Positions 19,621 to 36,856 of a DNA stretch of 64,000 nucleotides are shown here, piece by piece. The DNA lies in NCBI GenBank assembly GCA_031292625.1, contig JARLGU010000030.1, positions 1 to 64,000 of the forward strand, given 5' to 3'. The notes beneath the pieces were generated by a model, which saw only the letters and a list, made by a program, of their open reading frames with translations, searched no databases and had not been told where the DNA came from. Source of the DNA: Capsulimonadaceae bacterium. GTDB taxonomy: Bacteria > Armatimonadota > Armatimonadia > Armatimonadales > Capsulimonadaceae. The position numbers were made by a program, and so were the translations under genes. Each line of letters begins with the position of its first letter. Position 1 is the first letter of the stretch.

Positions 19621-21426
19621 ATGATCACTCCCTACGATGAGGCGATCATCGCCTTCTACTTTGTCTTTGTCTTGACCGTCGGCCTGTTGTTTAAGCGCCT
19701 CAGCAAGAGCACCTCGGATTACTTTCGCGCGGGCGGCGCGATGCCCTGGTGGATCACCGGGACGTCCGCATGGATCGCGGGGTTTAGCGCATGGACGTTC
19801 ACGGGCGCCGCGGGCAAGGTCTACGAGACGGGGTCGCTCGTGCTGGTGCTCTATTACGCCAACGTATTGGGGCTCGCAATGGTCTACCTGTACACGTGCA
19901 CGCGCTTTCGACGTCTACGCGTTGTGACGTGGATGGAGGCCGTTCGCGCGCGCTACGGCAAGGATACGGAGCAGTTCTATACTTGGATCAAGCTGCCTCT
20001 TCTCCTGCTCTTCTCCGGTGTCGGCCTCAATGCCATCGGCGTGTTCATTTCGTCGGTCTTTCACGTGCAGATTCAGCCGGTCCTGGTCATCCTCGGAGTC
20101 GCGGTTACGATCGTGGCCGTCACGGGCGGGGCGTTTGCAGTGCTGGCGAGCGACTTCGTACAGATGTTTCTTGTAATGACGATCACCCTGGTGGTCGCTT
20201 ACCTTACCCTGCATTTGCCGCAGGTCGGCGGGATCGAAAACCTGTTGCGTCACGTTCCGTCAAGGCATTTCCACTGGACCGAGATCGCGCGTCCGGAACT
20301 GCTGACCCTGTGGGGGTTGGTTATGATCTGGAACGGTCTGGCGGCCGGGAACAACGTAGAAAACGCGACGATGTACCTGATGGCGAAGAGCGACCGCGAC
20401 GCGAAACGGATGGTGCTCATTCCACTGATCGGTTCAATCGCCGGTCCGCTGATCTGGTTTATCCCATCAATGGCCGCGACGATCGTCCACCCGAATCTGG
20501 CGGCGGAATTTCCGCTCCTCAAGAGCCCGCACGAAGCCGCGTTCGTCGCGATGTGCATGGACGTGCTGCCGAAAGGCCTGATCGGGTTGTTGATCTGCGC
20601 CATGCTCGGCGCAACCCTTACGAGCATGGATGCCGGTCTCAACAAGGGCGCGGGCGTCTTCGTGAGAAGTTTCTACTTGCCGGTTCTAAACCCGGCGTGT
20701 CCCGAAAAGAAACTGTTGCTTGTCAGTAAGACGACCACGCTCGTTTTCGGCGCGATCATCGTCTTCTTCGCGGTCGAGTTCAGCCGATTCCGAACGATGG
20801 GGCTGTTCGACACGACCAACCTGCTCGCGGCCTGCCTCGGCGGCCCAATGATCGTGCCGCTTCTGTGGGGAATGTTCTTCAAGAAGACGCCAGCCTGGTC
20901 CGCCGCAACCACCACGGTGATCGGGTTCATTATCTCGCTGACCGTATACTTTACGTTTGATCCGGTTTGGTTCCAGCATCTCTGCGGTTGGGGCACGCTC
21001 AACAAAGATGAAGTGACGTTCTTGCAGCTCGGAGTCTCGGCGTTCGCGACAATCGTACCGTGCTCGCTATGGTTCTTTCTCACGAGCCGCTGGTACGACA
21101 AAAGCCCAGCCGAGCACAAAGACCGGGTGGACGAGTTGTTCACGCGCATGGACACGCCCGTCAACGTCACAAGCGAGGGCGTACAGAATCTGGATCATGC
21201 AATTTACGGTCTTCTCGGCGGGCTGTGCCTGGCGTTCGGAGGATTCATTCTGCTGCTCACGGCGATCCCGAATAACCTGACAGGGCGACTCTGCTTCGTC
21301 TTCTGCGGAGGCGTCGTTGTTATCGCGGGGACGATCCTGACGTCAATTTCGCGCAAGCTGGCCGTCGCCGCGGCCGCGCGTCCGGTAGGCGTCGCGGAGA
21401 TTGCGCCTACGGGTTCGACCGTGTAG
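19621..21426 (+). CDS. SSS-family sodium/solute symporter
   Basis: This 601-residue integral membrane protein shows about 13-14 hydrophobic segments and begins with the SSS pattern DYFRAGGAMPWWITGTSAWIAGFSAWTFTG, as in SGLT-like transporters. It probably imports a sugar or oligosaccharide with Na+ across the inner membrane. It lies between the hydroxyacid dehydrogenase and the GH127 enzyme, so the cargo is likely a product of arabinan or xylan breakdown. The specificity is inferred only from context. Confidence 0.88.
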   Translation: MITPYDEAIIAFYFVFVLTVGLLFKRLSKSTSDYFRAGGAMPWWITGTSAWIAGFSAWTFTGAAGKVYETGSLVLVLYYANVLGLAMVYLYTCTRFRRLRVVTWMEAVRARYGKDTEQFYTWIKLPLLLLFSGVGLNAIGVFISSVFHVQIQPVLVILGVAVTIVAVTGGAFAVLASDFVQMFLVMTITLVVAYLTLHLPQVGGIENLLRHVPSRHFHWTEIARPELLTLWGLVMIWNGLAAGNNVENATMYLMAKSDRDAKRMVLIPLIGSIAGPLIWFIPSMAATIVHPNLAAEFPLLKSPHEAAFVAMCMDVLPKGLIGLLICAMLGATLTSMDAGLNKGAGVFVRSFYLPVLNPACPEKKLLLVSKTTTLVFGAIIVFFAVEFSRFRTMGLFDTTNLLAACLGGPMIVPLLWGMFFKKTPAWSAATTTVIGFIISLTVYFTFDPVWFQHLCGWGTLNKDEVTFLQLGVSAFATIVPCSLWFFLTSRWYDKSPAEHKDRVDELFTRMDTPVNVTSEGVQNLDHAIYGLLGGLCLAFGGFILLLTAIPNNLTGRLCFVFCGGVVVIAGTILTSISRKLAVAAAARPVGVAEIAPTGSTV

Positions 21427-21475
21427 GCAAGCTCTTGGATCACGCTCACTTGTACGTTCAAATCATAAGGTTAAG

Positions 21476-23449
21476 ATGACGGAGCATGAGGCTCTGGCCA
21501 TCAAACAGGGTCATCAATCAATGCCAAGCGATCAATTAGACGGTTTGCCCGCGGGGCGGTGCAAGCTGCTCCCAAGTCCGTTCCAAAACCGATTCGAGCT
21601 GAATCGCGCCTACGTCGGCAGCCTTCAAACCGCAAACCTTCTGCGGCCTTACCTATTCGAGGCAGGCCTCTGGAGCTACTCCGGCTCATTTGGCACCACG
21701 ATTGGAGCAAAGGCGCTCGATGGACCTGAGACATGGCACTGGGGCTGGGAATCGATCACCTGTCAGTTGCGCGGCCACATTCTTGGCCATTGGATGTCGG
21801 CGGCAGCCCACATATGCGCGCAGTGCGTCGATCCGGAGCTTGCCGGCAAGCTCACCCGCGTTGTCGCGGAACTCGCCCGCTGCCAAAAAGCCAACGGCGG
21901 CGAATGGGCGGGACCATTTCCAGAAGCCTATCTGCAACGAATCGCGATAGGCGAAAACGTCTGGGCGCCCCAATATACGCTTCACAAGCTGTTGATGGGC
22001 TTGCTCGACACGTATCTGGTCACGCACAACAACGAAGCGCTGACCGTGTTGACCAAATTCGCAAGCTGGTTTTACCGGTGGAGCGGGCAATATGACCGGG
22101 ATCAGTTCGACGACATTCTCGATTTTGAGACAGGAGGAATGCTCGAAATCTGGGCCGCGCTGTATGTTATTACGGGCGCTCAAGAACACAAAGAGCTGAT
22201 CGATCGCTATGATCGCCGGCGCTTCTTCGACCGGCTGTTGGCAGGCGACGATGTTCTTACGAACAAACACGCAAACACCCAAATCCCCGAAATCCTCGGA
22301 GCGGCCCGCGCGTGGGAGGCGACAGGCGACAGCCGGTACAGACGCATCGTCGAGGCGTTCTGGGACGCCGCAGTCACTCAACGCTGCACGTATTGCACGG
22401 GCGGCTCATCGTGCGGCGAAGTTTGGCAGCCTGCGGGCGTGCTCTCGCCCCGCCTCCACGAGCCGCACGAACACTGCACGGTTTACAACATGATGCGCCT
22501 CGCACAGTTCCTCTACCGGTGGACGGGAGACGACAAATACGCGGATTACTGGGAACGCAACTACCTGAACGCTATCCTCGCGCAGCAAAACGCGGACACG
22601 GGGATGGTCTCTTACTTCCTTCCGCTCGCGCCCGGAAGCAAGAAAACATGGGGATCGCCAACCGAAGATTTCTGGTGCTGCCACGGCTCTCTGATGCAAG
22701 CGCATTCCGCTTGCGATCAGGCGCTCGTGTTTCAAAAGGGCGCCGGGGAGATAGTCGTGAGCCAGTACTTGCCGTCCGTCAGCGAATGGACCGTCGCCGG
22801 CAACGCCATTTCGATACGCATCACGCAGGATACGCAACAGGGCCTCAGCGCCGGCCAATTGTTCACTACCGAGGGGCACAATGCGATCCAGCATATCCAC
22901 AACGCGCCGATTCCCGCGCGTCGTCCGACCGGGTATGTCCACGATATATCCATCAAAGCCACGGCCGCGACTGAGTTCACGCTGAGCCTGCGGGTTCCGC
23001 GGTGGGTCAGCGCCGAACCTACCATCATCGTAAATGGCGAGATCCTGGATAACATGGAACGGAGAGGTACCCGTATCGAGCTGCATCGGGCATGGACGAA
23101 CGACACCGTGCGCGTGATCTTTCCCGCAGCGCTTGCGGTGCAACCCATGCCGGACCGCCCGGATGCCGTGGCCTTCATGGATGGCCCGCTCGTACTCGCG
23201 GGCCTCGTCGATCATGAGCTAACCTTGAATGGCGATCCCAACCACCCCGAGACCATGCTCATACCTGACCGGGAGCGGCGACATGGTTGGTGGAACACCG
23301 GCTATTACCGAACCCAAAACCAGCCAGTGGGATTTCGGTTCGTTCCTTTGCTCGATATCCGGGACGAGGTCTATACCGTCTACTTCCCGGTCAGAGACCT
23401 GCCTATTGAAGGGCAGGTCCCCAACACGCGATCCGAGCGAATTGCGTGA
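21476..23449 (+). CDS. GH127/GH146-like beta-L-arabinofuranosidase
   Basis: This 657-residue protein matches the former DUF1680 family, retaining enzymes that use a cysteine nucleophile held by zinc. The helical (alpha/alpha)6 domain covers about 20-430, with CTYCTGG (304 on), E332-x-C334 in HEHCTVYN, and C401-C402 in FWCCHGS, the positions expected to form the Zn-Cys site. The FWCC form is closer to GH146 than to the CxCC of HypBA1. Beta-sandwich domains follow. No signal peptide is seen. The longest frame begins at 21401 inside the symporter gene, but ATG 21476 has AAGG at 5 bases. It probably removes beta-L-arabinofuranose from imported oligosaccharides. Confidence 0.85.
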   Translation: MTEHEALAIKQGHQSMPSDQLDGLPAGRCKLLPSPFQNRFELNRAYVGSLQTANLLRPYLFEAGLWSYSGSFGTTIGAKALDGPETWHWGWESITCQLRGHILGHWMSAAAHICAQCVDPELAGKLTRVVAELARCQKANGGEWAGPFPEAYLQRIAIGENVWAPQYTLHKLLMGLLDTYLVTHNNEALTVLTKFASWFYRWSGQYDRDQFDDILDFETGGMLEIWAALYVITGAQEHKELIDRYDRRRFFDRLLAGDDVLTNKHANTQIPEILGAARAWEATGDSRYRRIVEAFWDAAVTQRCTYCTGGSSCGEVWQPAGVLSPRLHEPHEHCTVYNMMRLAQFLYRWTGDDKYADYWERNYLNAILAQQNADTGMVSYFLPLAPGSKKTWGSPTEDFWCCHGSLMQAHSACDQALVFQKGAGEIVVSQYLPSVSEWTVAGNAISIRITQDTQQGLSAGQLFTTEGHNAIQHIHNAPIPARRPTGYVHDISIKATAATEFTLSLRVPRWVSAEPTIIVNGEILDNMERRGTRIELHRAWTNDTVRVIFPAALAVQPMPDRPDAVAFMDGPLVLAGLVDHELTLNGDPNHPETMLIPDRERRHGWWNTGYYRTQNQPVGFRFVPLLDIRDEVYTVYFPVRDLPIEGQVPNTRSERIA

Positions 23450-23779: not shown

Positions 23780-24068
23780 TGGCAATGCCCTTTCTTGTCG
23801 TCAAAGCCAGAAGACTGGCGTCGAAGACAGGTTCCACGGCCTGCGCCGCCCCGCGGCGTACGGCCTCGAAGAGTTATTCCCATAATGCGGCCATATTAGC
23901 GCGCGCAAACTGCACGATCGCCAAAGGTCCTCTCAGTCCGTCTGCTAAAGCCCCGCGCTTGATTTGCCGATAATCGACATGAGCAGATCCGCGCGTGGTT
24001 CCGGCATACGGCACGCGCACGCCGGGGCACGGGCGAGTTCGTCCTCGCAGGGACAGGAGACAATTCGG

Positions 24069-25280
24069 ATGGCAACATTCACGTACGATGCCGTGGACTC
24101 GATGGGACATGCCGTTAAGGGAACCATCGAAGCGGACAACGAGCAACTGGTGCTGACGCGGCTGCACGAGCAGCATTTTCATATCGTCAACATTCAGGAA
24201 GGAAAAGCGAGCGCGTTCGCGAACACGTTCACGAAGAGAACCGGCAAAGTGAAATTGCAGGCGCAGGTGATTTTCTCGCGCCAGTTCGCAACCATGATCA
24301 ATGCCGGCATCAGCATGATCAAATGCCTCGACATTCTGGAGAGTCAGACGCGCGACCAAGCCCTCGAGGAAACGATCTCACAGATTCGCCGCGATGTCAA
24401 AGAGGGCATGACTCTCACCGATGCGATGAGCAAGCATCCCCAGGTCTTCTCCAAACTTTACATCAATATGATCCGCGCGGCGGAAATTGGCGGGATTCTC
24501 GATACGATCCTGGATAGATTGGCAGGATTTCTTGAGAAGGAACTGGAAATTAAGGGAAAGGTCAAATCGGCGCTGATGTATCCGGTCCTGGTGATGATCT
24601 TCGCCTTATTGGTGGTTGCGGCGCTGTTCGTCGTCGTTTTGCCCAAGTTCAAAGAGATATTCGACTCGATGAACGTCGAGATGCCTCCGGCAACCGCGTT
24701 TCTGTTTGCGGCAAGCGACTGGATGTGCAACTACTGGTACCTGCTGCCAGTCATCGGAGGCGCGGCCTATGTTGCATACCGATGGTACGCGAAAACACCG
24801 CAAGGTGCGTTCAATATCGACGCGCTCAAGCTCAAGATACCGATCGCCGGTGAGCTTGTCCTGAAGATGTCGATCTCGCGATTCGCGAGAACTTTTGGCA
24901 CGCTCCTTGCATCTGGCGTCCCGATGATGCGCTCGCTGGAGATCATCGGTGAAACATCGGGTAACATTGTAATTGCGGACGCGATTAATAAGACACGCAA
25001 TTCGATCCGCGAAGGTCAGAAAATTAGCCAGCCGCTCGCGCTGAGCGGTCTGTTCCCGCCAATGGTCACCCACATGATCGACGTCGGCGAGGAGACAGGC
25101 CTTCTGTCCGAAATGTTGCTTAAGGTGTCCGACTTCTACGATCAGGAGGTCGACGCCATGATCAAGGGGTTGACATCCCTGATCGAGCCTTTGCTGATCT
25201 CGTTTATGGGCTTCGTAGTCGGGTTCATTGCGATCTCGGTTATGTCGCCAATCTTCAAACTCGTTAGTTCGATACGTTGA
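24069..25280 (+). CDS. Type II secretion / type IV pilus inner-membrane protein (PilC/GspF)
   Basis: This 403-residue protein has the two repeated T2SSF cytoplasmic helical domains (about 65-190 and 270-395), each followed by a membrane segment (ALMYPVLVMIFALLVVAALF, and LISFMGFVVGFIAISVMSP at the end). FSRQFATMINAGISMIKCL and FARTFGTLLASGVPMMRSL are the matching repeat starts. It anchors the assembly ATPase under the pilus or pseudopilus. ATG 24069, preceded by AGGAGA, replaces the longer frame from 23964. No other pilus genes lie beside it, though DUF1559 pseudopilins nearby are possible clients. Confidence 0.93.
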   Translation: MATFTYDAVDSMGHAVKGTIEADNEQLVLTRLHEQHFHIVNIQEGKASAFANTFTKRTGKVKLQAQVIFSRQFATMINAGISMIKCLDILESQTRDQALEETISQIRRDVKEGMTLTDAMSKHPQVFSKLYINMIRAAEIGGILDTILDRLAGFLEKELEIKGKVKSALMYPVLVMIFALLVVAALFVVVLPKFKEIFDSMNVEMPPATAFLFAASDWMCNYWYLLPVIGGAAYVAYRWYAKTPQGAFNIDALKLKIPIAGELVLKMSISRFARTFGTLLASGVPMMRSLEIIGETSGNIVIADAINKTRNSIREGQKISQPLALSGLFPPMVTHMIDVGEETGLLSEMLLKVSDFYDQEVDAMIKGLTSLIEPLLISFMGFVVGFIAISVMSPIFKLVSSIR

Positions 25281-25335: not shown

Positions 25336-26658
25336 ATGGAAAACAACGAGGCGATCAACGCGCCCCGCGATACGGGTTTGACGGCCCGGCAGGAAGAAGA
25401 AGCCCGCACCAAAAGACTGCTCGAGCGCTACAGCGCCCGCAAGGATGCGGCTGCGCGCGACGCTCTTGTCGAACAGTATCGCCCGCTCGTCGAAAAGTTG
25501 GCGCGTCGCTTTACGCCCACCGGCATCCCGATTGAAGATCTGGTGCAGGAAGGCTATATCGGCCTACTGCACGCAATCGACCACTTTGACGTCTCCAAGA
25601 ACGTCAAGTTCATCACCTACGCAACCCACTGCGTCGGTGGACATCTGCGTCATTATCTGCGAGACCGCGGCCAGATCATCAAAGAGCCTGCATGGCTGCA
25701 AGAGCTCAGCCAACGCGTCCGGCGCGCAACGGACGCCCTTGTCCAGTCGCTTGGCCGCCAGCCGAACAGCGCGGAAATCGCCGAACTCGTCGGGCTAACC
25801 GAAGACGTCATCCGGCAGGTTGAGTCCACCAGGCCCCTCTTCAGCGTCGCATCGCTCGATGAATCGTTCGATGACGGCTCCCGCACGCTCGCGGAAACCG
25901 ATGCCGTCGCGACATCCGGAAATGCCTCAAACAGCGATGAGTTTGCGTCGTTTGAGTTGCCGATCGAAGAGAAAGTCGTCCTCGAGGCCGCTCTCAAGCG
26001 CCTTAAGGACCTTGAACAGAGGGTTGTGTATCTGTTCTACTACGACGACCGCAGCCAGACGGAAATCGCGCGTGAACTGGGCATCTCGAATAACTACGTC
26101 TCGCATATCCTAAAAAACAGCGCGCGGAAACTTCAGCAAATGTACCGCAGCGAAGCAGTGCGCGAGGCGGCGCTTCAGTACGAGCGGCAGTGCGTGCGCC
26201 TGGTTGCCGCGCAAAACCAGCGCAGCGCCGAAGTCGAGGAGATCCCTTCATCGATCGTCGATCCCGTAACCGGGCTCTACTCACGCAACTATTTCGAAGC
26301 GCGGCTCGACGAAGAACTGAGCCGCGCAATGCGCCATGACCTGCAACTCGCCGTCGTTCGCGTCAAACTGGGTTCGGATCTTCCGGAAGCCAACCTCTTT
26401 GCCCATGTCGGCCAGACGATCAAGCAGACCGTGCGCAAAATGGATATTGTCGCCCGCACGGACAACTTCGAGATCGCAGCGCTTCTTCCGCACACTGGCG
26501 AGTCTCGCGCCGTCGTTCTCCAACGGTTGAACGCGCGCCTTGAGCTGCTCGAAGCCGAATTCCCGCACCGATTCACGTACACGATCGGCTCCGCCGCCTA
26601 TCCCGAATTCCGCAAACGCTCGGAAATCTTCGATGCCGCCGCGCCCGCAATTATCTAA
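25336..26658 (+). CDS. Sigma-70 family factor fused to a degenerate GGDEF domain
   Basis: This 440-residue protein begins as a group 3 sigma factor: region 2 (about 40-110, IEDLVQEGYIGLLHAIDHFD), region 3 (about 115-180) and region 4 with its helix-turn-helix (about 235-285, QTEIARELGISNNYVSHILK). After a charged linker, residues about 320-435 align with diguanylate cyclase domains: DPVTGLYSRNYFEARLDEEL matches the usual start, and IGSAAYPEF the usual end. The active-site signature is lost, reading RTDNFEIAALLP where RYGGDEFxxLLP is expected, so catalysis is unlikely and nucleotide sensing or dimerisation is possible. ATG 25336 is used; GTG 25324 is an alternative. It lies 55 bases after the PilC gene, perhaps in one operon. 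Confidence 0.88.
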   Translation: MENNEAINAPRDTGLTARQEEEARTKRLLERYSARKDAAARDALVEQYRPLVEKLARRFTPTGIPIEDLVQEGYIGLLHAIDHFDVSKNVKFITYATHCVGGHLRHYLRDRGQIIKEPAWLQELSQRVRRATDALVQSLGRQPNSAEIAELVGLTEDVIRQVESTRPLFSVASLDESFDDGSRTLAETDAVATSGNASNSDEFASFELPIEEKVVLEAALKRLKDLEQRVVYLFYYDDRSQTEIARELGISNNYVSHILKNSARKLQQMYRSEAVREAALQYERQCVRLVAAQNQRSAEVEEIPSSIVDPVTGLYSRNYFEARLDEELSRAMRHDLQLAVVRVKLGSDLPEANLFAHVGQTIKQTVRKMDIVARTDNFEIAALLPHTGESRAVVLQRLNARLELLEAEFPHRFTYTIGSAAYPEFRKRSEIFDAAAPAII

Positions 26659-27267: not shown

Positions 27268-28899
27268 ATGGTGAACGAACCCGGCAAGCGACTTGTAGGC
27301 GACGCGCAGGCTGATTACGTCCTGACCGGCGGCACGGTCTACGATGGATTGGGCGGGCCGCCGGTTCAGTCCGACGTTGCAATCCGCGGCGATCGAATAG
27401 TTGACATTGCTTCCGGGCTGGCATCCAAGTATGCCGCGGCGCGACAGATCGATGTCACCGGACTGTCAGTCACCCCGGGCTTTATCGATATTCACACACA
27501 CTCGGATATTTCCGTTCTCGTCAATCCGCTCATGGAATCCAGCGTGCACCAGGGCGTGACCACCGAGGTCGTGGGCAACTGCGGCATGTCGATCGCATCG
27601 ACCCTGCCGACCGCCGAGTTCGCATTCGAGCGAAGCTGGCTGGAACGCAGCGGCCTTCAAATGACCTGGGGCTCGTTTGCCGGGTTTCTGCGCGCCGTCG
27701 AGGAGCAAGGCGTCGCGATCAATATCTGCTCGCAGACGGGGCACGGCACGCTCAGGAAGCAGGTGATCGGCGTGGATGACCGACCGCCTTCGCCCAGCGA
27801 GCTGACGCGCATGCAAAGCTTGGTCGAGTCGGCAATGAGCGACGGCGCGGTTGGGCTGAGCACGGGCCTCGAATACCTTCCTGGGGGCTACGCCAACCTG
27901 GACGAAATCGTGGCCTTGGCGTCAGTCGCCCACGCGGCAGGCGGATTCTACTCGTCGCATATCCGCAACGAAGGCGACACGCTGCTTGAATCGGTCGACG
28001 AAGCGATCGCGGTCGGGAAACGTACCGGGATTCCGGTCCAGGTATCGCACCTCAAAGCCGAAGGCCGCAAGAATTGGGGCAAGGTCTCTGCGGTTCTTCA
28101 GCACATGGACGACGCCCGCAAGGCGGGCTTCGACGTATTGACGGACCAGTATCCTTATACCGCGTTCATGACCGGTCTGCAGGTGGTGCTGCTGCCAAAA
28201 TGGGCGATGGCGGGAACCATCGACGATATGCTAGAGCGCTTGAGCAATTCGACGACGCGGACGCAGATACGCGATGAAATCCTGCGAAATCCGCCGGACT
28301 GGACCAAGATCCAGATCGCCGTGTCGCGCAAACGACGTGACACGCAGGGATTGACGCTTGAACGGCTTGGCGCACGAGAGGGTAAGCACCCGCTGGATGC
28401 CGCGCTGGACCTGCTGCTCGACGAAGGAGGCTGGCTTGCGGCCGCCCATTTCGCGCTGAGCGAAACGGACCTGGAAACCGTCCTGCGCGATCCGCACACG
28501 ATGATCGGCAGCGATGGCGTTTCGACGGCCCCGCGCGGGGCGCTTGCGGAAGATCAAACGCATCCACGCACCTACGGAACGTTTCCGCGCGTGCTGGCAT
28601 CGTGCGTTCGCGACCGTGGAATCATCCCGCTCGCCGAAGCTATCCGGCGTATGACAAGCCTGCCCGCGGGGCGCATCGGCCTGCGGGACCGAGGACGGCT
28701 GGCGGTAGGCATGAAGGCGGACGTGACCGTGTTTAAGGCCGGGGAGATCGCTGACGTTGCGACGTTCGAAACGCCGCATAAGTTCGCGGTCGGCATCGAG
28801 TACGTATTCGTAAACGGGCGGATTGCGCTCGAAAACGGCGTCCAACGGGACGTCCGTCCCGGCCGGGTGCTGCGGAGAGAAAACGGGGCGGTAGCGTAG
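27268..28899 (+). CDS. N-acyl-D-amino-acid deacylase (amidohydrolase family)
   Basis: This 543-residue metallo-amidohydrolase hydrolyses N-acyl-D-amino acids or related D-dipeptides. The metal motif is HTHSD after GFIDI (about residue 75), with VGNCG, SSHIRNEG and VSHLKAEGRKNWG providing further ligands, and GSDGVSTAPRGALAEDQTHPRTYGTFPRVLA is the characteristic C-terminal block. The beta-sandwich halves at both ends (DYVLTGGTVYDG and GMKADVTVFK) are intact. No signal peptide is present. AGGA lies about 12 bases before the ATG. Intergenic repeats flank the gene on both sides. It may recycle D-amino-acid compounds from cell walls. Confidence 0.9.
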   Translation: MVNEPGKRLVGDAQADYVLTGGTVYDGLGGPPVQSDVAIRGDRIVDIASGLASKYAAARQIDVTGLSVTPGFIDIHTHSDISVLVNPLMESSVHQGVTTEVVGNCGMSIASTLPTAEFAFERSWLERSGLQMTWGSFAGFLRAVEEQGVAINICSQTGHGTLRKQVIGVDDRPPSPSELTRMQSLVESAMSDGAVGLSTGLEYLPGGYANLDEIVALASVAHAAGGFYSSHIRNEGDTLLESVDEAIAVGKRTGIPVQVSHLKAEGRKNWGKVSAVLQHMDDARKAGFDVLTDQYPYTAFMTGLQVVLLPKWAMAGTIDDMLERLSNSTTRTQIRDEILRNPPDWTKIQIAVSRKRRDTQGLTLERLGAREGKHPLDAALDLLLDEGGWLAAAHFALSETDLETVLRDPHTMIGSDGVSTAPRGALAEDQTHPRTYGTFPRVLASCVRDRGIIPLAEAIRRMTSLPAGRIGLRDRGRLAVGMKADVTVFKAGEIADVATFETPHKFAVGIEYVFVNGRIALENGVQRDVRPGRVLRRENGAVA

Positions 28900-34995: not shown

Positions 34996-35019
34996 CGCGG
35001 CGTCATCAACCCTTTGGAC

Positions 35020-35128
35020 GGCGATGCAACTGGCGCATATTCAGCTTCGCGCAAGACCGGTAGCTGAGTACGGGGATTAACCCCAAGGGAGCATCGCAAT
35101 CTGGAATCGTCGCGCGCCTGGACATCGT
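35020..35128 (+). promoter_or_regulatory. ZTP riboswitch (pfl motif)
   Basis: The conserved parts are in order: GCAACTGGCG (35026-35035), a small stem GGGG-attaa-CCCC, AAGGGAGCATCGC, and the 3' element GCGCGCCTGGACA (35112-35124). P1 forms from CGATG (35022-35026) and CATCG (35123-35127). The RNA binds ZTP/AICAR ribonucleotide, signals of 10-formyl-tetrahydrofolate shortage, and typically switches on purine and folate genes; here it precedes purH, the enzyme that consumes AICAR. Confidence 0.85.
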
Positions 35129-35164
35129 TTCGCCACACGGCCGGAAAGATGCCAGGCGCGTTTT
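35113..35164 (+). terminator. Riboswitch-controlled terminator of purH
   Basis: CGCGCCTGG (35113-35121) plus ACATC pairs with GATG-CCAGGCGCG (35148-35160) and is followed by TTTT. The 5' arm is also the conserved 3' element of the ZTP aptamer, so ligand binding should block the terminator and allow purH transcription. Confidence 0.8.
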
Positions 35165-35287: not shown

Positions 35288-36856
35288 ATGAAGATTAAGC
35301 GAGCGCTCCTTAGCGTTTCCGATAAAGCAGGACTGGTCGAGTTGGCGAAAGAGCTCGTCGACTTGGGAGTTGAGCTTCTTTCGACCGGAGGGACGGCGTC
35401 GGCGCTTGCCGCGGCGGGGCTTCCCGTCACCGCGGTTTCCGACGTTACGAAGTTTCCCGAGATGCTGGAAGGTCGCGTGAAGACGCTGCACCCAGCGATT
35501 CACGGCGGTTTGCTTGCCGATCGCAGCAAGCCCGAGCACATGGCCAAGATCGCCGAGCATGGCATTGAGCCCATCGATCTCGTCGTTATCAACCTGTACC
35601 CGTTCGCCGCGACGATTGCGCGGCCCGACGTGACCCGCGAACTGGCGATCGAGAATATCGACATCGGAGGTCCGTCGATGGTGCGCTCCGCCGCAAAGAA
35701 CCACGCATCCGTGACCGTGGTGACGTCGCCCGACGATTACCCTGCGCTGATCGACGAGTTGCACCGCAACGGCGGCGAGACGAGCGAGGCGCTTAGGCGC
35801 GAGTTGGCGGCCAAGGCGTACGCGCATACGGGAGCCTACGACGCTCTCATCGCATCGTACCTTCGCCGCGATCAGACCGGCTTTCCGCAGATCCTGCCGC
35901 TTGCGTTCACCAAGGTTCAAGATCTACGCTACGGCGAAAATCCGCACCAGAAGGCGGCATTCTACCGCGAAGACGGCTTTACGCAGCCCGGCGTCGCGAC
36001 CGCGAAAAAGCTGCACGGCAAAGAGCTGTCGTTTAACAACATCTTCGATATCAACGGCGCTTACGAACTCGGACAGGACTTCGCTCAAGAGGAACAGCCA
36101 TTCGCCGCGATTATCAAGCATACCAATCCTTGCGGCGCCGCGCTCGCCCCTACCCTTGACGAGGCGTTTAAACGCGCCCGCGCCGGCGATCCCATCTCGG
36201 CGTTCGGCGGCATTCTCGCGCTGACCCGCCCTATCGATGTCGCAACGGCCGAAGCGATCACCGCGCCGAACACGTTCTTCGAAGCGATTATCGCACCGGG
36301 CTACGAACCGGAAGCATTCACGATGCTGACGACGAAAAAGAAGTGGGGCGCGAACCTGATCCTGCTTGAGACGCCCAACCGCGAAAAGCCGATCGAATCC
36401 GAGTGGGACCTCAAGCGAGTCACGGGCGGTCTTCTCGTACAATCGCTGGACGTCAAGGCCATCGACCGGGCCACCCTGGACGTTCCGACGCGACGCGGCG
36501 CGACGGAAGAGGAGCTCAACGACCTGATCTTTGCGTGGAAAGTCGTCAAGCATATCAAGTCCAACGCCATCGCAATCGCGAAGGGCGGTCAGCTTTACGG
36601 AGTCGGCGCGGGGCAGATGAATCGCGTCGGAAGCGTCCGTCTCGCGGTCGCCCAGGCCGGAGCGAATGCGCAAGGCGCGGCGCTCGCATCCGATGCGTTC
36701 TTCCCGTTCTCCGATGGCCCGCAGGCCGCTGGCGAGGCCGGCATCACATCAATCATCCAACCCGGCGGGTCAGTCAAGGACGCCGAATCGATCGCCATGG
36801 CCGACCAGTACAACATCGCGATGGTGCTCACCGGAGCGCGTCACTTCCGGCATTAA
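35288..36856 (+). CDS. purH: Bifunctional AICAR transformylase / IMP cyclohydrolase
   Basis: This 522-residue enzyme performs the last two steps of purine synthesis. The N-terminal MGS-like IMP cyclohydrolase domain begins RALLSVSDKAGLVELAKEL and contains VKTLHPAIHGGLL. The transformylase domain has LRYGENPHQKAAFYR, the catalytic IIKHTNPCGAA and AIAKGGQLYGVGAGQMNRV, ending TGARHFRH as is usual. Length is typical. GAGG lies 9 bases upstream. Expression is controlled by the ZTP riboswitch upstream. Confidence 0.97.
   Translation: MKIKRALLSVSDKAGLVELAKELVDLGVELLSTGGTASALAAAGLPVTAVSDVTKFPEMLEGRVKTLHPAIHGGLLADRSKPEHMAKIAEHGIEPIDLVVINLYPFAATIARPDVTRELAIENIDIGGPSMVRSAAKNHASVTVVTSPDDYPALIDELHRNGGETSEALRRELAAKAYAHTGAYDALIASYLRRDQTGFPQILPLAFTKVQDLRYGENPHQKAAFYREDGFTQPGVATAKKLHGKELSFNNIFDINGAYELGQDFAQEEQPFAAIIKHTNPCGAALAPTLDEAFKRARAGDPISAFGGILALTRPIDVATAEAITAPNTFFEAIIAPGYEPEAFTMLTTKKKWGANLILLETPNREKPIESEWDLKRVTGGLLVQSLDVKAIDRATLDVPTRRGATEEELNDLIFAWKVVKHIKSNAIAIAKGGQLYGVGAGQMNRVGSVRLAVAQAGANAQGAALASDAFFPFSDGPQAAGEAGITSIIQPGGSVKDAESIAMADQYNIAMVLTGARHFRH

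Follow-up and report, generated by a model that had tools for sequence, protein, structure and literature searches.

The DNA analyzed here (the window) is a stretch of 64,000 nucleotides from a Capsulimonadaceae bacterium of the phylum Armatimonadota (contig JARLGU010000030.1, positions 1 to 64,000). At positions 25336-26658, exactly where an earlier note on this DNA had placed it, lies a single gene in which a sigma-70 factor is joined to a degenerate GGDEF domain (Table 1). The open reading frame runs from an ATG at 25336 to a stop codon at 26656-26658 with no frameshift or interruption. Pfam analysis revealed sigma-70 regions 2, 3 and 4 in order, each above its gathering cut-off, followed in the same frame by the GGDEF domain. 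Because relatives across the phylum share this single-frame fusion, a missed stop codon or a frameshift, which the earlier note had raised as a concern, is excluded, as are an assembly error and a misjoining of two genes.

Table 1. Features of the sigma-70/GGDEF fusion gene and its upstream neighbor (window positions; residues numbered in the fusion protein)
Feature	Position	Strand	Basis or remark
Sigma-70/degenerate GGDEF fusion gene	25336..26658	+	440 amino acids, ATG to stop; full-length relatives across Armatimonadota
Sigma-70 region 2, residues 44-112	25465..25671	+	PF04542, Sigma70_r2, E 5.5e-19
Sigma-70 region 3, residues 123-179	25702..25872	+	PF04539, Sigma70_r3, E 1.6e-10
Sigma-70 region 4, residues 219-267	25990..26136	+	PF04545, Sigma70_r4, E 5.2e-13
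Helix joining region 4 to GGDEF, residues 273-294	26152..26217	+	AlphaFold2 model, modest confidence
Degenerate GGDEF domain, residues 307-426	26254..26613	+	PF00990, E 1.4e-13, 51.4 bits (cut-off 23.8)
R330 (PleD R313, partner-side arginine of the inhibitory site), 49/49	26323..26325	+	Alignment
R333 (in register with WspR R198; PMC2270323), 43/49	26332..26334	+	Alignment
R367-K-M-D370 (RxxD of the inhibitory site; PleD R359/D362), R 49/49, D 48/49	26434..26445	+	Alignment
Dead active-site loop D376-N-F-E-I380, replacing GG(D/E)EF	26461..26475	+	Alignment
R397 (PleD R390), 49/49	26524..26526	+	Alignment
pilC-like platform protein gene (T2SSF, E 1.7e-62), start codon uncertain	23964..25280	+	Directly upstream; conserved neighbor

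The sigma part scores 106.4 bits against the broad NCBIfam sigma-70 model TIGR02937 (cut-off 42.9), the sole NCBIfam sigma model that it passes. Its best subfamily match is the SigB/SigF/SigG model TIGR02980, at 173 bits against a curated cut-off of 234, and the designation as a group 3 sigma factor therefore stands as a likeness, with membership unproven. The fusion also differs from the SigB, SigF and SigG factors in its extra C-terminal domain. That domain has retained the GGDEF fold: in addition to its PF00990 score, a model of the domain alone (mean predicted local distance difference test score 84.4, predicted template modeling score (pTM) 0.78) superposes on PleD and other cyclases with a VIA Z of about 17-18.8.

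The active site, in contrast to the fold, has been lost. Alignment with PleD, in a sequence identical to that of PDB entries, sets R-T-D-N-F-E-I of the window protein opposite R-Y-G-G-E-E-F, which agrees with the earlier description of an RTDNFE loop in place of R-x-GGDEF. At the PleD positions D327, N335 and GGEE the window protein has K, a gap and D-N-F-E. The residues that serve guanosine triphosphate (GTP) and metal (D327, K332, N335 and GG[DE]E in PleD numbering) are missing across the fusion family; the set is intact in none of 49 fusion domains versus 43 of 46 other Armatimonadota GGDEF domains. The protein thus lacks the metal, GTP and GG(D/E)EF residues of an active diguanylate cyclase. 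The earlier note had suggested an autonomous sensor of cyclic diguanylate (c-di-GMP) or GTP. With these residues gone throughout the family, sensing of GTP is unsupported and very unlikely at the active site, and both a GTP sensor and an active cyclase were rejected.

What the family has kept is the c-di-GMP inhibitory site (I-site). In PleD this site consists of R313', R359, D362 and R390, with R313 contributed by a neighboring domain (PMC7288161, PMC12943098). An alignment of 49 GGDEF domains of fusion proteins, drawn from many families and with a mean column identity of 30%, has only three invariant columns: R330, R367 and R397. D370 is present in 48 of the 49. The window protein carries this quartet as RRDR, that is, the RxxD motif with two further arginines. 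The probability that three invariant columns out of 161 would all fall within a named quartet by chance is 6e-6 if ancestry is ignored. As for the partner arginine, the PleD R313 column lies three residues before WspR R198, and the fusion family keeps both (R330 and R333).

The quartet was complete in 48 of 49 fusion domains versus 23 of 46 other Armatimonadota GGDEF domains, with a Fisher p of 2e-8 that is a guide only, because such tests take related sequences as independent, which inflates the result, and because the controls had been picked for a high GGDEF score. At the R313 position the counts were 49/49 and 30/46, and at the R390 position 49/49 and 37/46. From the quartet counts, the I-site is held more tightly in the dead fusion domains than in live cyclases. 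A set of 20 members fetched after the pattern had been noticed, mostly from further families, gave the same picture: the quartet was found in 19 and the active-site motif in none. This intact I-site, which the earlier note did not mention, is the main argument for c-di-GMP binding, and it makes direct sensing of c-di-GMP by the fusion plausible.

Nor had the earlier note remarked on how old and how widespread the fusion is. Close relatives are from Armatimonadota, including a metagenome-assembled genome of Capsulimonas, and relatives across the phylum share about 36-56% of residues along most of the protein. A scan of contigs by short peptide patterns returned relatives of the same family only. 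For a census of the phylum, a profile built from 32 full-length members was run on 291 Armatimonadota genomes. It matched 208 of them at E 1e-60 and 188 at E 1e-90, at the latter threshold in single copy in nearly every genome; among the weaker matches are families whose sigma part stands without a GGDEF domain (f22, for example) and proteins that are only related sigma factors. The fusion is thus no local peculiarity. The search beyond Armatimonadota was limited in breadth: no match outside the phylum was seen at 1e-90 among the matches listed for 397 relative genomes (about 106 beyond the phylum, by subtraction), and 30 genomes of one other phylum gave no match in a search that had no positive control. 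A tree was built from 49 fusion GGDEF domains together with 46 others from Armatimonadota and those of PleD and WspR; every fusion domain fell into one clade (support 0.997), as would be expected if the two parts had been joined once, long ago. An origin from a plasmid or phage was considered and rejected; the matches to such records fall on the sigma part, and none of them spans 80% of the query.

The fusion gene of the window follows the pilC gene on the same strand after 55 bases. This association, to which the earlier note had pointed, is real and recurs: of 61 loci, 27 (from 11 families) have pilC immediately before the fusion gene in the same orientation, as do 15 of 20 loci added later, making 42 of 81, or about 21 of 36 when counted by family. 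Families such as f18, f7 and f10 have the gene order secretin, PilB, PilT, PilC, sigma-GGDEF, and in f18 PilB carries an MshEN domain, a type of domain known to bind c-di-GMP. At one f18 locus (L100:4638-15981) this series continues on the same strand with a GAF/PAS histidine kinase and a zinc-ribbon/tetratricopeptide repeat protein. In family f2 the pil genes adjoin the fusion gene on the opposite strand, and none was seen within the stretch taken in f5, f9, f24 and others. Other pilC- and pilB-type genes of the window's genome sit on other contigs. No anti-sigma gene was recognized beside the fusion gene in the window, where no profile search for one was made. The host genome encodes 17 further GGDEF and 5 EAL domains; judging from these it can probably make and break c-di-GMP, and the messenger is therefore probably present.

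Many fusion proteins end in Ala-Ala. This was observed for 26 of 58 members (L043-L102) versus 1 of 418 neighboring long frames, and again for 14 of 20 later members (L161-L180); the window protein itself ends in PAII. The transfer-messenger RNA (tmRNA) tags of six member genomes end in LAA or FAA, the type of end usual for tmRNA tags directed to ClpXP (PMC9382460). By analogy, it is a fair guess that Ala-Ala acts as a ClpXP C-degron on the sigma factor in many families.

Based on these observations we propose that the fusion is probably an alternative sigma-70 factor that carries a predicted c-di-GMP receptor within the same chain and is linked to type IV pili. Regions 2-4 would direct RNA polymerase to one promoter class, and the C-terminal domain would descend from a diguanylate cyclase, with the active site lost and the inhibitory site preserved. 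In WspR and PleD, R-x-x-D and an arginine of one domain, together with an arginine of a second, clamp a dimer of intercalated c-di-GMP (PMC2270323). In the same manner, c-di-GMP might link two sigma molecules through their C-terminal domains, or one sigma molecule to another GGDEF protein, and the linkage would alter the ability of the sigma factor to bind polymerase or promoter. The regulon would likely include the co-located type IV pilus genes, and the Ala-Ala end may in addition make the proteins of many families ClpXP substrates. Whether the scheme holds in full, as a one-protein switch in which c-di-GMP at the I-site gates a sigma factor driving type IV pilus genes across Armatimonadota, with a ClpXP-type Ala-Ala degron in many lineages, we consider evenly balanced. 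A sigma factor that senses c-di-GMP at a site of its own would connect the messenger to promoter choice by the most direct path, and it would be a lineage-wide regulator in a phylum where experimental genetics is scarce. Linkage to pil genes suggests why such a switch might exist, and the Ala-Ala ends could add a further tier of control.

Both parts, an I-site effector domain and a sigma-70 factor, are known. Their combination was not found described in a literature search, which yielded no paper on a sigma-GGDEF fusion and had most subscription papers outside its reach. The RsiG-(c-di-GMP)2-WhiG system of Streptomyces and Rubrobacter is similar in placing a sigma-70 factor under the control of c-di-GMP; there, however, c-di-GMP sits on a separate coiled-coil anti-sigma factor, whereas the predicted site of the fusion is in a GGDEF domain attached to the sigma factor itself. 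The c-di-GMP-binding motif of RsiG, which we take to be E-x3-S-x2-R-x3-Q-x3-D, had no match in the window protein (P0001) or in any of 61 fusion members, the rest of the genome not having been searched for it. Targets of the Rubrobacter RsiG-WhiG system include type IV pilus genes (PMC8325347). Because of the RsiG-WhiG precedent, the c-di-GMP-bound form of the fusion is somewhat more likely to be the inactive than the active one. PopA and PelD likewise keep an RxxD I-site although their active site is degenerate (PopA: PMC12564702), but their outputs are cell-cycle proteolysis or polysaccharide export, and that of the fusion is a sigma factor. PleD and WspR have the I-site residues and the GGDEF fold (Z about 17-18) in common with it; both are working cyclases whose I-site serves for product inhibition, whereas the fusion enzyme is dead.

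Besides the inflated p-values, several points weigh against our proposal. The I-site residues can persist for structural reasons, and R359 and D362 are common in all GGDEF domains. One member (L068) carries RRNR in place of the quartet and another (L166) is without the last arginine. The full-length AlphaFold2 model has a pTM of 0.34 and its Foldseek rows superpose badly (root-mean-square deviation 10-34), for which reason we make no claim on the relative placement of the sigma and GGDEF halves. Adjacency to pilC does not prove control of pilus genes. Finally, family f22 (L091, L093, L094, L099) has the sigma orthologue without the GGDEF domain, an apparent domain loss that provides a natural control; as many genomes also lack the gene altogether, the fusion gene is not essential to Armatimonadota.

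The main rival to an I-site receptor is a GGDEF domain that serves only to contact other proteins (the sigma part, an anti-sigma factor or a partner GGDEF protein) and senses no nucleotide. It would suit a catalytically dead domain, and there is a precedent in the GGDEF domain of RmdB, a sigma-WhiG ligand, which is catalytically silent and can touch and act on a sigma factor without a catalytic motif of its own (PMC13232838), although RmdB acts in trans and the domain of the fusion is covalently joined to its sigma factor. A contact role fails, however, to predict that the invariant residues are those of the I-site quartet, better kept than in live cyclases and retained also in the later-fetched members, and we consider it unlikely. 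Less probable again is the sensing of another nucleotide at the I-site, for instance guanosine tetra- or pentaphosphate, (p)ppGpp, or another cyclic dinucleotide. The site is an arginine-rich pocket, and PDB entries 9g85 and 9g86 are, by title, PleD with c-di-GMP and ppGpp or pppGpp; against this, the quartet makes up the canonical site for c-di-GMP, whose turnover enzymes are encoded in the genome. There is little room for the view that the domain is a vestige, or a plain dimerization or stability module with no signaling role: the sigma part does occur without it in f22 and divergence outside the motif columns is fast, but 188 of the 291 genomes of this deep phylum still have the domain, with its I-site selectively retained. 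An active diguanylate cyclase, as the Pfam label GGDEF might imply, or an artefactual frame joining two proteins is refuted at the sequence level, with the active site intact in 0 of 49 domains and the frame continuous across the phylum, and deserves practically no credence.

Two minor observations concern the rest of the window. The genes that flank the pilC and sigma pair, at 21401-23449 and 27268-28899, appear by eye to be glycosidase-like and amidohydrolase-like, respectively, and are apparently unrelated. Further along, a ZMP/ZTP riboswitch (RF01750, 46.8 bits) is located at 35016-35130 on the plus strand, upstream of the frame that begins at 35288.
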